Translations under genes and position numbers: made by a program
Source: Fimbriimonadaceae bacterium
GTDB taxonomy: Bacteria; Armatimonadota; Fimbriimonadia; Fimbriimonadales; Fimbriimonadaceae
Direction: 5' to 3'
Assembly (NCBI GenBank): GCA_019454105.1
Contig: CP075364.1
Span: 186,001-250,000, forward strand
Length of the DNA stretch: 64,000 bases
The notes under the pieces: generated by a model
Seen by the model: only the letters and a program-made list of their open reading frames with translations
Databases searched by the model: none
Told to the model about the DNA's origin: nothing
In this document: positions 10,216 to 64,000 of the stretch, in pieces
How positions within the stretch are numbered: position 1 is the first letter of the stretch
Layout of the letters: each line of letters begins with the position of its first letter

Positions 10216-11017
10216 GACTGTCCAGAGCCGGGTCTCTTCCTTTGCCTTTGGAAGTCAGTCGGACGGCGAACACGGAGACGAAGAACAAAGCCGCCAAGGG
10301 TAGGGCCATCGCGGTCATGGTGAACGGATCGCCGGACGGCGTCAGGCAGGCAGCGAGGAAGAAAATGGCGACTGTGGCCTGTCTCCAGTACCGGAACAAT
10401 GTCTCGGGCGCGATCACCCCGATCTTGGCCAAGAAGTAGGTGACCACCGGTAGCTCGAACCCAATCCCAAAGGCCAGGACGATCTTGACGATGAGGAAGA
10501 CCATGGCGCCCGGCTCTTGGTACAGAGCCGTGCCCGGGAAGGAAGCGAAGAAGCTCGCGAACCACTTGAACGACGGCGGGATCATCATCCAGCCGATCCA
10601 GCAGCCGACAAGAAAGAGCACGACGCTGATGGGTCCAAGAACGCGGACCGGACGAATCTCGTTGGGCTTGAGCCCGGGTTTGACGAACCCCCAGATTTCC
10701 AGGGCCATGTGCGGCAGAGCGATCGTCAAGCCGATATAGAACGCCAGCTTCAACTGAAGCATGAACGGCTGGGTGACGTCCTTGAAGGGTTGCTCGAATT
10801 TGAGCCAGGTCGGAATGTTCGCTTGGACGACCTTGTCAAGGACGACGTACGCGGGCAAGGCCAAAAACCATCCGACGACTGTCATCACGAGGAGGACGCC
10901 CAGTACGCGAAGGATCCTCGCCCTGAGTTCGTCTAAGTGTTCGCCAAGAGTCGCGCGAAAGTCTTCAGGATCGTTGTTCGACCCTGAAGACTTCTTGGGC
11001 AAGAGGGCGAAAGCCAC
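10208..11017 (-). CDS. tatC: Sec-independent (Tat) protein translocase subunit TatC
   Basis: 269 residues with six hydrophobic spans. TatC is the twin-arginine signal receptor of the Tat translocon in the cytoplasmic membrane. The conserved N-terminal HLDELRARI is present (most homologues have HLxELR), as are the region around IGWMMIPPSFKWFASF, AFGIGFELPVVTYFL, and the terminal ACLTPSGDPFTMTAMALPL. It starts at a GTG, 12 bases after the stop of the Gly-rich gene, and overlaps the helicase. tatA is not in the window. Confidence 0.95.
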   Translation of the reverse strand: MAFALLPKKSSGSNNDPEDFRATLGEHLDELRARILRVLGVLLVMTVVGWFLALPAYVVLDKVVQANIPTWLKFEQPFKDVTQPFMLQLKLAFYIGLTIALPHMALEIWGFVKPGLKPNEIRPVRVLGPISVVLFLVGCWIGWMMIPPSFKWFASFFASFPGTALYQEPGAMVFLIVKIVLAFGIGFELPVVTYFLAKIGVIAPETLFRYWRQATVAIFFLAACLTPSGDPFTMTAMALPLAALFFVSVFAVRLTSKGKGRDPALDSLD

Positions 11018-18140: not shown

Positions 18141-18460
18141 GAGAACGCCTCCCGTACAAGTCTCACCAGGTCGCCCTCCAGTGACCGCTTGGCCTCCTCG
18201 GGGTCGTTCGCTTCGAGCACATGGATGTACATCGTCCGTTTGTCGCTGGAAACGTCGAGGGCCAGCGTCCCTGGTGTCAGGCAGATCAAGTTGGCAAGGA
18301 CGGCGATCTCCCAATCGCTCTTGGCCTCGAGGTCGATCGCCAAGACGGCAGGCCGAAACTTGGGCTTGATTGAGAGGACATGCCGGATGACGGTGATGTT
18401 CGAAAGGATCAAGAGGGTCAAGAACCGACCGATCAGCCTTAAGATCCGCCAAATCTTCAC
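18137..18460 (-). CDS. mrpE: Mrp-type Na+/H+ antiporter subunit E
   Basis: 107 residues from a GTG at 18460 that overlaps the mrpD stop as GTGA. One membrane helix (LIGRFLTLLILSNITVIRHVL) is followed by the MrpE domain with KPKFRPAVLAIDLEAKSDWE and ANLICLTPGTLALDVS. It is shorter than Bacillus MrpE (about 158 residues), lacking the first helix pair and part of the C-terminus, as seen in several bacteria. Confidence 0.9.
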   Translation of the reverse strand: MKIWRILRLIGRFLTLLILSNITVIRHVLSIKPKFRPAVLAIDLEAKSDWEIAVLANLICLTPGTLALDVSSDKRTMYIHVLEANDPEEAKRSLEGDLVRLVREAFS

Positions 18461-19857
18461 CGCAGAACCTCTCCTTGGACAGTTTCTTTCAGGCCCGAGA
18501 CGGCCGGGCCGGCGAGAAGCCCGCCAGCAAGGGTCAAGGCTGCGGTCGCGGCGCAGACCGCCGGGACGGTCCACCCCAGCTTGGCGCCGCTTTTCTCGCT
18601 CTCGTGAGCCGTGGACTGCCAGGCTTGGAGCAGGGCGAACAGAGAGAGAAGGCTACTGAGCAGGACAGCACCGACCGCCAGAGGGTTTTCGGCCAGCAGT
18701 CCCGCTTGCACAAAGGCGAACTTGGCGACAAAGCCAGAAGTCGGCGGGATTCCGGCAACAGCGAGGGCGCAGACGAGGAACCCGCCTCCTACCGCGAGCC
18801 TCGCGACCGGTGAACTCCCGGTTCGGCCAAGCGCCGCCACAGCGAAGAAGAGGCCTGCCATGGCGACCATCTCATGGGCGATCAACAGCACCACGACGCT
18901 GGCGGATTGGAGGCCGATCGCCACCAGCACAGTCCCCATCTGACTGGCCAGCAAGAACGCGAGCCTTCTCCGGACGTCGTTGATCGCGATGGCCGCCAGT
19001 GCCCCAGCGATCGTCGTTGCCGCACCGGCCCAGACAAGGATGTCGAACCAGAGTCCGCCCGCCGGAGGGAAGAGCGCCGTCCCGATGCGAAGCAGAGCGA
19101 AGGCGGCGACCTTGGTGGAGACAGCGGCGAGCAGGGCCGCGATCCCGGGAGGGGGCGCCGTGTAGGCGTCGGGCAACCAAGCGTACATGGGGAACATGGC
19201 CGACTTGATCGCCAGCGCGACCAGAGCCAATCCTCCGATCATGTTGGGGCCCGGCCCCGAGAACGAGCTTTGAAGTTCCGCGATCTTGGCCAGATCCAAG
19301 TTGCCGTACCACCCATAAGCCAATCCACAGGCACAGAGGAAGAAGACCGACGCCATGAGGCTGATCAGCAGATACTTGAATCCGGACGCCAATTGGGCTG
19401 GCGTGGACCCGAGAGTCACAAGAACGAACGATGCCGTCAGCATGAGCTCGAACCAGACAAAGAGGTTGAAGAGGTCACCTGAAAGCAGCGCGCCCGACGC
19501 GGCCGCCAGCACGACTTGGGCGATCGAATGGAACCCGCGGCGCAACCGGGGCCGGTCCATGGTCGCCGTCGCGACCACCAGGGCCGCTGTGACGACCCAA
19601 GACATCAGGGCGACGAGACCAGCGGACGCAGGGGTCGCCTCGAAGAAGATTGTGAAGGGGCGAGGGAACGACCCCAGGCGTGTCTCGATCGTTCCCTGGT
19701 GCGCGACCGTAGCGAACAGGAGGGTCGAAACCGTCGCATGGAGCAGTCCGCCGATGATTCCCTTGACCCGGTGTTCGCTCCCGAACCGTGTCGTGAGGGC
19801 CATGAACACGGCCATCGCCAAGGGCACCACGACAGGGAGGACCGGTAGCCAAGTCAT
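18457..19857 (-). CDS. mrpD: Mrp-type Na+/H+ antiporter subunit D (NuoN/NuoM-like)
   Basis: 466 residues with about 14 membrane helices, a proton-translocating subunit related to complex I NuoL/M/N. Family residues seen include the Glu in FVWFELMLTASFVLV, the Lys segment LALVALAIKSAMFPMYAWLPDAYTAPPP, LLAAVSTKVAAFALLRI, and the discontinuous-helix region GIPPTSGFVAKF. It overlaps mrpC and mrpE by four bases each. Confidence 0.95.
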   Translation of the reverse strand: MTWLPVLPVVVPLAMAVFMALTTRFGSEHRVKGIIGGLLHATVSTLLFATVAHQGTIETRLGSFPRPFTIFFEATPASAGLVALMSWVVTAALVVATATMDRPRLRRGFHSIAQVVLAAASGALLSGDLFNLFVWFELMLTASFVLVTLGSTPAQLASGFKYLLISLMASVFFLCACGLAYGWYGNLDLAKIAELQSSFSGPGPNMIGGLALVALAIKSAMFPMYAWLPDAYTAPPPGIAALLAAVSTKVAAFALLRIGTALFPPAGGLWFDILVWAGAATTIAGALAAIAINDVRRRLAFLLASQMGTVLVAIGLQSASVVVLLIAHEMVAMAGLFFAVAALGRTGSSPVARLAVGGGFLVCALAVAGIPPTSGFVAKFAFVQAGLLAENPLAVGAVLLSSLLSLFALLQAWQSTAHESEKSGAKLGWTVPAVCAATAALTLAGGLLAGPAVSGLKETVQGEVLR

Positions 19858-20204
19858 AGTTCGGCCTCTTCGTCGATCTTGTCAAGGTCGTCGTCTCCCA
19901 TGGACTGAGAAAGCCGGCGAGCGAGGGCGAGGGCCAAGACGGTCAGGGCGAACGAAATGACGATGGCCGTGAGGACGAGGGCTTGGGCCACCGGGTCGCT
20001 GGCCCCAGGTGGCATGGCGTAGTCTTTGCCTTCCAAGATCGGAGGCGCCGCCAACCGCATCCCGGCAGAGCTGAAGACAAGGAGGTTCGCCGCGTTGCCG
20101 ATCAGGACGATGCCAAAGAGAACCTTGACCACTGTGTGACGTTGGATGAGGAACAGGCCGCTCGCGAACAACACCAGGACGAGCGCCGGGAGGACGATCG
20201 TCAT
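19854..20204 (-). CDS. mrpC: Mrp-type Na+/H+ antiporter subunit C (NuoK-like)
   Basis: 116 residues with three helices, matching MrpC/NuoK: FLIQRHTVVKVLFGIVLIGNAANLLVF, then DPVAQALVLTAIVISFA. The ATG at 20204 overlaps the mrpB stop as ATGA. The acidic tail DDDLDKIDEEAEL is a local peculiarity. Confidence 0.94.
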   Translation of the reverse strand: MTIVLPALVLVLFASGLFLIQRHTVVKVLFGIVLIGNAANLLVFSSAGMRLAAPPILEGKDYAMPPGASDPVAQALVLTAIVISFALTVLALALARRLSQSMGDDDLDKIDEEAEL

Positions 20205-20614
20205 TCGCCTTCCTCCCCGATCCGCCTTTCGAACGTCAGCGCGAACTGCATGAGGACGCCGAACACCAGGAGGTAGACGCCGATATCGAAGAGGAGCGGC
20301 GTTCCAATCTTGAGGTCGGCGTTCCAGATTCCCGTCAAGAACGTCCGGTTGTAGAAGTAGGCGACGAACCCGCTGAGCACCGAGAAGCCGAGCCCGGCCC
20401 CAATCAGGGCGAGAGGTTGGGCCGGAAGTAGCTTCCTGGCTTCGGCGACGCTGTAGGCCAGGCCATAGAGGGCCACTCCGGTCGCAGCGAGGATGCCCCC
20501 TGCGAACCCTCCGCCTGGAGAGTTGTGTCCTCGGTAGAGAATCCAAAGCGAGAACAGGAAGGTGAGCGGGACCAGCAGCTTGGCCCAAGTGCGGAGCACC
20601 AAAGAGGGGATCAT
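20201..20614 (-). CDS. mrpB: Mrp-type Na+/H+ antiporter subunit B
   Basis: 137 residues, four helices, with the conserved LYRGHNSPGGGFAGGILAA segment of MrpB. The ATG at 20614 overlaps mrpA by four bases. MrpB is separate here rather than fused to MrpA as in some group 2 systems. Confidence 0.94.
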   Translation of the reverse strand: MIPSLVLRTWAKLLVPLTFLFSLWILYRGHNSPGGGFAGGILAATGVALYGLAYSVAEARKLLPAQPLALIGAGLGFSVLSGFVAYFYNRTFLTGIWNADLKIGTPLLFDIGVYLLVFGVLMQFALTFERRIGEEGE

Positions 20615-60969: not shown

Positions 60970-62026
60970 GGACAGGTTGCTCCTGGCCGGTCGCGGCCGA
61001 CTTGTACAGGGCGTCAAAGATGGCGTTCAGCGCCAGGCCATGTTCGCCTGGGATCGGAGAGGGGTCGCCGTTGAGGGCGGCCCGGACGAAGGCTTGGATC
61101 TCTGCCGTGTGGGCCGACTTGACGTCGGGGACGTTTCTCGGAGTCATGTCAAAAAGCTGGCGGTCCCGCTCGCTGTAGATCTCGATTGCGTTCTCGCCCC
61201 AACCTTTGACCAAGGCCCCGGACTTCGTTCCAAAGAGCTCCGTTCGGAAGAGCTCGTCTTTGATGTTGGCCATGAATGAGCTTTCAAGAACGACCACGGA
61301 TCCGTTGTCGAACCGGATCAAACCGACCGCCATGTCTTCGACCGTGAACTTGGTTCGGTCATAGTCGCCCCACGGGTTCACGATGTTGGGATCCTTCCCA
61401 AGCCGGTCCCACGTGGCCCCGCTTGCCGTCACGGGTTTGGGGTGGCCCATCAGGTGGAGGGTCAGGTCGAGTATGTGGACACCGATATCGATCAGCGGCC
61501 CCCCGCCTTGCTTCTCCTTGTCGATGAAGACGCCCCAGTGCGGCACGCCTCGACGGCGCAGCGCCTGGGCCCGAGCGTAATAGACGTCGCCCATGTGCCC
61601 AGCGTCGATGTACTGCCTCATGAAGAGGGCAGGCCCAGCGAACCGCATTTGGAGGGCGACCATGAGGATCTTCCCGGCCTTGCGGGCTGCCAGGCACATC
61701 TCTCGCGCCTCCACCGCGTTCATGGCGAGCGGCTTTTCGCAAATCACGTGCTTTCCGGCGTTCAGGGCGTCGATCGTCGGCTGTTTGTGAAAGGCGTTGG
61801 GCGTCGTGACGCTCACGGCACCGATCTCAGGGTCTGACAAAAGGTCTTGGTAGTTGTGGGTCGATCGGGCCCCGGGAACCAGAGCCCTGGCTCCGTCGAG
61901 TGCTTCGGGGCTCACGTCGCAGATCCAAACGATCTCGCACTCATCGGGAATCGAGAGGAACCCGGGGATGTGGCACGATCTGGCGATGCCGCCTGTGCCG
62001 ATCAAGCCGACCTTGAGCTTGTTCAC
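60953..62026 (-). CDS. Gfo/Idh/MocA-family oxidoreductase
   Basis: 357 residues. N-terminal Rossmann fold VGLIGTGGIARSCHIPGF, the conserved EKP in HVICEKPLAMN, and the catalytic region GGGPLIDIGVHILDLTLHLMG with the Asp and His. Family members oxidise or epimerise sugars with NAD(P). The exact substrate is unknown; the glycoside-hydrolase neighbour suggests a sugar. It starts at a GTG overlapping the terC stop (GTGA). Confidence 0.9.
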   Translation of the reverse strand: MNKLKVGLIGTGGIARSCHIPGFLSIPDECEIVWICDVSPEALDGARALVPGARSTHNYQDLLSDPEIGAVSVTTPNAFHKQPTIDALNAGKHVICEKPLAMNAVEAREMCLAARKAGKILMVALQMRFAGPALFMRQYIDAGHMGDVYYARAQALRRRGVPHWGVFIDKEKQGGGPLIDIGVHILDLTLHLMGHPKPVTASGATWDRLGKDPNIVNPWGDYDRTKFTVEDMAVGLIRFDNGSVVVLESSFMANIKDELFRTELFGTKSGALVKGWGENAIEIYSERDRQLFDMTPRNVPDVKSAHTAEIQAFVRAALNGDPSPIPGEHGLALNAIFDALYKSAATGQEQPVHASLT

Positions 62027-62778
62027 GAAGCGTCAGGATACTTAGTTTCAGCCGGGGTCGGCGCGGGTCTGAGCCAAGCCGCGACCGCAAACCCGGCGAT
62101 GATCACGGCCATGACAGTCCAGAACACCGTGTGGTCCATTTCGTGGACCACAAACGGGAGATCGACTGGGTTCGTCTTGTTGTAAGACTCCACGAAGTTG
62201 TGCCCGGTCATGAAGCAAAGCTTCACCGCGACCCAACCGACGAGCGCATAGGCCATGTGTTCCAACACCGGGAAGCGGGCCAACAAGTTAATGAAGATCG
62301 TCGCCGCGAACCGAAGAAGAACGACGCCAAAGATCGCGCCGAGGTAGATGACCCACACCTTGTCGGCCCCTCTGACGAGGGCGACGGCGGCCACCACCGA
62401 ATCGATTGCGAAAGCGATGTCGGCCAGCTCGACCGCTACGACCGTCTGCCAAAAGCCGCGACCCTCAGTCTTGGGTTTGGCATGGTGTGACTGAGAGTGG
62501 AGCCAAAAGTGCCTGACAAACAGCCACAAGAGGTAAGCGGCGCCGATGGCTTGGAGCCACCATAGGTTGATGATCCAGGTGACGGTCAGGATGGCGATCA
62601 AGCGGAAGACGAACGCACCGCCGAGCCCATACAGAAGCGCTTTCCGCTGGAGCTTGCCGGGCAGGTGGCGAACCATGATCGCCAGGACAAGGGCGTTGTC
62701 CGCCGAAAGCAAGCCTTCGAGCAGGATGAGAAACGCGACGACGGACAGGTCTGGCCAAGCAAAAGTCTGCCCGAACAT
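62023..62778 (-). CDS. TerC-family integral membrane protein
   Basis: About 251 residues, seven to eight helices. TerC features: LLEGLLSADNALVLAIMVRHLP near the start and AVELADIAFAIDSVVAAVALV in the middle, each with the conserved Asp/Glu likely to bind a metal. TerC proteins are linked with Mn2+ export and metal loading of exported proteins (MeeF/MeeY type). I chose the ATG at 62778 with GGAGA before it; it is part of an inverted repeat shared with the divergent gene. Confidence 0.9.
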   Translation of the reverse strand: MFGQTFAWPDLSVVAFLILLEGLLSADNALVLAIMVRHLPGKLQRKALLYGLGGAFVFRLIAILTVTWIINLWWLQAIGAAYLLWLFVRHFWLHSQSHHAKPKTEGRGFWQTVVAVELADIAFAIDSVVAAVALVRGADKVWVIYLGAIFGVVLLRFAATIFINLLARFPVLEHMAYALVGWVAVKLCFMTGHNFVESYNKTNPVDLPFVVHEMDHTVFWTVMAVIIAGFAVAAWLRPAPTPAETKYPDAS

Positions 62779-62837
62779 GGGTCTCCGAGCATTGTGCCAT
62801 GCCGAGGAATGAGGGCTGCGGTACACAATGGAGACCC

Positions 62838-62840
<3 letters not shown>
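62776..62840. repeat. Inverted repeat joining two divergent start sites
   Basis: CATGGGTCTCC (62776-62786), four bases, then ATTGTG (62791-62796) mirrors CACAAT (62824-62829) and GGAGACCCATG (62830-62840). Both start codons and their ribosome-binding sites (GGAGA) are in the arms. The left arm differs only by an inserted GAGC. Confidence 0.75.

Positions 62841-64000
<1,160 letters not shown>

Follow-up and report, generated by a model that had tools for sequence, protein, structure and literature searches.

Mirrored start sites of terC and a LolA-like gene in a Fimbriimonadaceae genome: probably two independent near-leaderless promoters

In the genome of a Fimbriimonadaceae bacterium, terC and a gene for a LolA-like protein diverge from each other, and both begin inside the arms of one inverted repeat. 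This raises the question of why two unrelated start regions should be mirror images, and whether the likeness reflects common control, an RNA structure, a copying event or nothing more than two promoters of the same kind placed back to back. The locus was analysed within a stretch of 64,000 nucleotides (the window; contig CP075364.1, positions 186,001 to 250,000). The arrangement is probably made of two independent, divergent, back-to-back promoters, each giving a near-leaderless mRNA; the inner GGAGACCC of the two arms would then most likely be alike by chance.

The inverted repeat and the two genes

The inverted repeat is real. Its left arm, CATGGGTCTCC (62776–62786), and its right arm, GGAGACCCATG (62830–62840), are complementary at 11 of 11 positions and separated by 43 nt. 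Next to them on the side of the loop, CATTGTG (62790–62796) and CACAATG (62824–62830) are complementary at 7 of 7 positions, in a register shifted by 4. The earlier note on this DNA described 11 plus 6 bases in each arm, which is correct if one 4-base gap is allowed; the extra bases are on the terC side (62787–62790, minus strand), and their exact placement is ambiguous. The left arm, read on the minus strand, is GGAGACCC-ATG of terC, and the right arm is GGAGACCC-ATG of the LolA-like gene. The start codon closes each arm (terC ATG, 62778–62776, minus strand; LolA-like ATG, 62838–62840, plus strand), so that both genes do begin within the arms as the note had it. The complementarity stops at both ATGs and does not extend past either.

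The minus-strand terC gene (62023–62778) encodes a YkoY-type TerC membrane protein. The product matches Pfam TerC with an E value of 1.5e-51 and the NCBIfam model TIGR03716 (R_switched_YkoY) at 243.5 bits (cut-off 138.5). Its start is supported by the MFGQTF-type beginning, which is kept in many homologues. The plus-strand gene (62838–63611, ATG at 62838) encodes a protein of 257 amino acids with a likely signal peptide. No Pfam or NCBIfam model matched this protein at E ≤ 1, and one of 11 aligned members matches DUF2092 at E 0.002. The predicted structure (mean pLDDT 83.3) has LolA (1iwl) as its best match, with a Foldseek E value of 5.9e-10; the name "LolA-like", also used in the earlier note, is therefore right at the level of the fold. 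Homologues of this gene were found in 13 of 60 other genomes and, at E ≤ 1e-10, in 12 of 85 family genomes, its own included. None of the 13 has the gene beside terC; the nearest terC and LolA-like matches on one contig elsewhere are about 13 kb apart (G011). The pairing is thus seen in the window's genome only, as compared with the 60 others.

The frequency of such repeats was estimated in the window and in a genome sample of 464 kb out of 2.74 Mb (the window and L046–L065). Perfect 11-nt inverted repeats with loops of 0–60 nt occur six times in the window, whereas 20 Markov-1 shuffles contain 1.45 on average. If the loop is restricted to 20–60 nt, the window has three and the 464-kb sample, which includes the window, has 13. 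The five other perfect repeats of the window are at 10959, 14862, 28538, 51756 and 54618, with loops of 5–40 nt. An exact match of at least 8 bases directly before ATG was seen in 19 of 180,475 cross-gene pairs of candidate ATGs, the present pair included. Gapped match scores were computed for 64 divergent pairs; the terC/LolA-like pair scores 11, a value equalled or exceeded by 18 of 4032 combinations of mismatched partners. With about 380 divergent pairs in the genome, this rate gives an expectation of one or two such pairs per genome by score, and a lower number once matches are required to end at the two ATGs. For a single pair of starts such a repeat is uncommon, and across a whole genome it is unremarkable. 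A second divergent pair, at 18457–20276, ties the score of 11. A terminator-like stem of 8 pairs also lies over the terC arm and the first codons (62768–62791, minus strand); one such stem was found where 0.4 were expected, and its position inside the terC start is probably chance.

Candidate -10 boxes and predicted near-leaderless starts

A -10 box is the best reading of the outer CACAAT in each arm. On the terC side it belongs to a putative extended -10 element, TGGCACAAT (62791–62799, minus strand), which ends 12 nt before the ATG. On the other side the putative -10 element is TACACAAT (62822–62829, plus strand), in which CACAAT is 8 nt, or TACACA 10 nt, upstream of the LolA-like ATG. Both genes thus have a -10-like hexamer a few bases before the start. 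The outer parts of the arms would then resemble each other as two -10 boxes do, and the likeness at the start codons is simply that of two ATGs. RNA polymerase would bind CACAAT at 62796–62791 on the minus strand, and the terC transcript would begin near 62784. Binding of (TA)CACAAT at 62822–62829 on the plus strand would give a LolA-like transcript beginning near 62834–62836. If transcription starts about 7 nt after the box, the leaders would be about 2–6 nt long, so that both mRNAs would be leaderless or nearly so and ribosomes would initiate on an ATG that lies at the 5' end or close to it. The boxes and their spacing, like the genome-wide peak and the separate ancestry described below, are read from the sequence; where transcription starts and how the mRNAs are translated are predicted from them.

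The earlier note saw in each arm a promoter end, a ribosome site and a start codon. The likely -10 hexamer and the ATG stand, and the ribosome site finds no support, since the predicted transcripts begin inside or after GGAG. It should be mentioned that a sigma-70 scan of 62600–63000 found no promoter with a -35 element; the same scan also misses the promoters proposed here.

Placement of -10-like hexamers close to start codons is common in this genome, as judged from the 464-kb sample. Enrichment of k-mers upstream of first starts was too noisy for the -10 box, and anchoring on the hexamer succeeded. In 120 genes with unambiguous starts, 12 of the 13 [TC]A.AAT hexamers within 44 nt upstream sit 5–12 nt from the start codon. 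In a start-free test, made with no gene calls, [TC]A.AAT was followed by ATG at gaps of 6 and 7 in 13 and 12 cases, respectively, over a background of about 3.7 cases per gap (gaps 13–39). Gap 8, as in the LolA-like gene, gave six cases. The terC gap of 12 nt is at the edge of the peak, with five cases, close to background. Among 120 letter permutations of the hexamer, [TC]A.AAT ranks second (32 of 315 sites; median rate, 4.3%); the one that outranks it, TAAA.[TC], is itself -10-like. At gaps of 5–8 the own genome holds 29 [TC]A.AAT cases against 10.4 expected. The reversed hexamer, as a control, shows a smaller excess (8 against 4.1), which means that part of the hexamer excess is unspecific. 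Samples of 100 kb from four relatives gave, at the same gaps, 8 against 3.1 (G009), 9 against 3.5 (G017) and 14 against 7.8 (G041), and no excess in the fourth (G032, 6 against 5.2). For Shine–Dalgarno (SD)-like 4-mers the start-free test, whose power is low here at about 70 cases per gap, gave no positional peak; in the set of genes with clean starts they rise mildly. The clustering of [TC]ANAAT at 5–8 nt before starts suggests that leaderless mRNAs are widespread in this lineage.

Each of the two genes appears to have brought its own -10 box. For terC, the starts were compared at 28 loci of relatives, drawn from 54 other genomes with a TerC match (30 loci with the own one; the own locus, L002, was left out of the relatives' counts, and L024, whose match begins at residue 39, was dropped from the start counts). 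Of the 28, 16 have the motif TG.CA[GC]AAT in the 120 nt that precede terC, where about 0.0018 would be expected per 120 nt. The gap from this box to the terC start is 14–49 nt in those 16 relatives and 12 nt for TGGCACAAT in the window. Eight of the 28 carry the motif on the opposite strand too, because the box is nearly palindromic. For the LolA-like gene, 10 of 16 loci were used; L035, whose upstream region is identical to that of L034, and the weaker L041–L045 were left out. In 7 of these 10 homologues (L033, L070, L071, L034, L036, L037 and L038) a hexamer beginning with TA ends 6–7 nt before the ATG, although that of L038, TAGGTA, would be a poor -10 box. The corresponding control in the window's genome was 50 of 602 candidate ATGs. 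GGTAGAA is retained in the three closest relatives of the LolA-like gene, and GGTA.A does not vary where the window is aligned with four homologues hand-picked from the 10, namely the three closest by E value and L036. This separate inheritance of the -10 boxes argues against the two promoters being mirror copies of each other. The argument covers the outer boxes and leaves the inner GGAGACCC outside.

In most of the relatives terC has other surroundings. The divergent neighbour of terC in 22 of the 28 relatives is a gene beginning with MPTYVYEC or similar, which we take, from this motif, to be of the FmdB type. Between fmdB and terC, many family genomes have a near-palindromic, promoter-like box with the consensus ATTGTGGCAGAAT (L003–L031 upstream of terC, for example L008, L009, L013 and L015; L100 and L102–L108). 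In the 16 relatives with the right half of this box, the left half is A in 13, T in 11, T in 15 and G in 12. The pattern A.T at box positions 1–3 is found in 13 of 14 loci with an FmdB neighbour and in neither of the two without; the window, which is also without, has GGC. These numbers are small, and they fit a box made of two extended -10 elements that share a TGNCA core, in which the FmdB half decays once FmdB leaves. ATTGTGGCAGAAT is thus a possible bidirectional promoter. Judged from these positions, the box of the window species no longer has its fmdB half.

The best match to PF09723 (FmdB-type) in the own genome lies at G000:C1:260764–260883 (L073), about 12 kb from terC, and has CATAAT 8 nt before its ATG. 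This gene starts with GAGAGACCCATAATGGAGGGCG-ATG, and the words GAGACCCAT and AATGGAG are common to it and the arms in another order; this sharing is probably chance. Of the 85 family genomes, 52 contain the palindrome ATTNTGNCASAAT and 16 contain the backward-read control; the palindrome has mostly 0–2 positions per genome. A wider regulon marked by it was considered and rejected: at 14 hand-picked sites, 13 in relatives and one in the window's genome, terC or fmdB was present at eight (L100, L102–L108), and the other six had unrelated or no clear genes. Another palindrome, ATTGTGTCACAAT, is upstream of a gene for a prepilin-like protein (L096, about 1972; G000:C1:72171–72183).

Alternative explanations of the mirrored starts

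The alternative that survives best, and is still rather unlikely, is a tiny local inverted duplication by template switching, which would have copied GGAGACCC-ATG between the two starts. The rarity of the exact 8-nt match per pair speaks for it, and to that extent counts against a chance origin of this match. The excess of 11-nt inverted repeats in the window over the Markov expectation points the same way, as does the spacer length of both genes, which is unlike that in most relatives examined. Against it, mismatched pairs reach comparable scores, and the match ends at both ATGs. Furthermore, the -10 boxes were seemingly inherited separately, each with its gene, and therefore at most the inner 11 bases could have been copied; the earlier note's idea of a local inverted duplication, taken to cover the start region as a whole, is not supported, given this separate ancestry. 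The shared GGAGACCC itself may stem from chance, which is likelier, or from a tiny duplication.

A common operator, by which one regulator would act on both promoters through the arms, is improbable. Each arm sits where transcription of its gene is predicted to begin, which would be a working place for a repressor. A shared regulator site, which the earlier note had offered as one reading, would be expected to recur in the genome or to be conserved; instead, GGAGACCCATG is scarce, with only four copies in the whole genome, two of them the arms, and GGAGACCC stands directly before the terC start in 0 of 28 relatives, with one copy elsewhere within 400 nt upstream in L020. Nor is the terC/LolA-like pairing itself conserved across the 60 other genomes compared.

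Slightly less probable again is a combined history, in which the FmdB partner and the symmetric promoter would have been lost and short inverted copying would then have made both stretches from -10 to ATG alike, as a mirrored, near-leaderless double start. If it were true, terC, for metal export, and a lipoprotein-carrier-like gene would initiate from the same initial sequence, and any factor working at the transcript start would affect both in the same way.

The weakest reading, a hairpin between the arms that conceals the start codons in mRNA, is very improbable: RNA spanning both arms would fold well (plus strand, -33.3 kcal/mol, z -3.01; minus strand, -34.9 kcal/mol, z -2.33), but the predicted promoters sit between the arms and read outward, so that each predicted mRNA carries one arm only and holds neither the other arm nor the full GGAG, the 81-nt stretches from the start region onward have no excess of structure (z -0.86 and +1.06), and the sigma-70 scan, which misses the proposed promoters too, gave no promoter in 62600–63000.

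Comparison with known systems

The yybP-ykoY manganese riboswitch occurs upstream of YkoY/TerC genes. The terC of the window matches the NCBIfam model named R_switched_YkoY. A riboswitch of this type upstream of terC was rejected as a candidate: an Rfam search of 61800–63700, up to E 10, gave only a sub-threshold match to sucA, at 20.5 bits against a gathering threshold of 40.

Bidirectional promoters with symmetric -10 elements are reportedly the subject of work by Warman et al. in 2021. The near-palindromic fmdB-terC box of the relatives, ATTSTGNCASAAT, resembles such symmetric promoters as described in PMC10268837, and the window is like them in that divergent promoters would arise from mirrored -10 sequences. 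That source defines them by divergent starts 7–25 bp apart and overlapping -10 elements. In the relatives the predicted starts would be about 25 bp apart, as compared with the usual 18. In the window, the boxes (62791–62796 and 62824–62829) are clear of each other, and about 50 bp separate the predicted starts; the window therefore does not seem to hold one symmetric promoter of the kind described in PMC10268837.

The pattern around start codons may matter more widely than the repeat. If -10 boxes abut start codons in this lineage, both the annotation of start codons and the prediction of promoters are affected; the repeat itself is less worth keeping than the leaderless pattern and the fmdB-terC box. 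Among the matches listed in a literature search at the level of titles, none was on leaderless genes in this group (phylum Armatimonadota). The motif scan of PMC12340547 spans the bacterial domain, and its main text does not contain "Armatimonad-". According to PMC10783764, the share of genes with SD sequences is 25% in the class Fimbriimonadia, the class of the window's genome, against 70% in Chthonomonadetes.

The closest likeness is to the leaderless genes of Deinococcus-Thermus and Actinobacteria. PMC3160421 reports TA-like signals about 10–12 bp before the start as the mark of leaderless genes, and PMC12340547 describes a -10 motif adjoining open reading frames in Deinococcus-Thermus. As far as these two accounts go, the two starts of the window and their genome share with such genes the -10-like hexamer 5–12 nt upstream, the lack of a detected -35 element, the weak SD sign and the genome-wide positional peak. 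By this analogy, the positional peak of the hexamer corresponds to the known signature of leaderless genes. Unlike the genes described there, the hexamer of this genome often has C as its first base (CANAAT beside TANAAT), the window has two such starts back to back, and the transcript starts are predicted ones. On this reading, the locus illustrates that ordinary promoter rules can be enough to produce mirrored, divergent starts, with no operator, hairpin or duplication.
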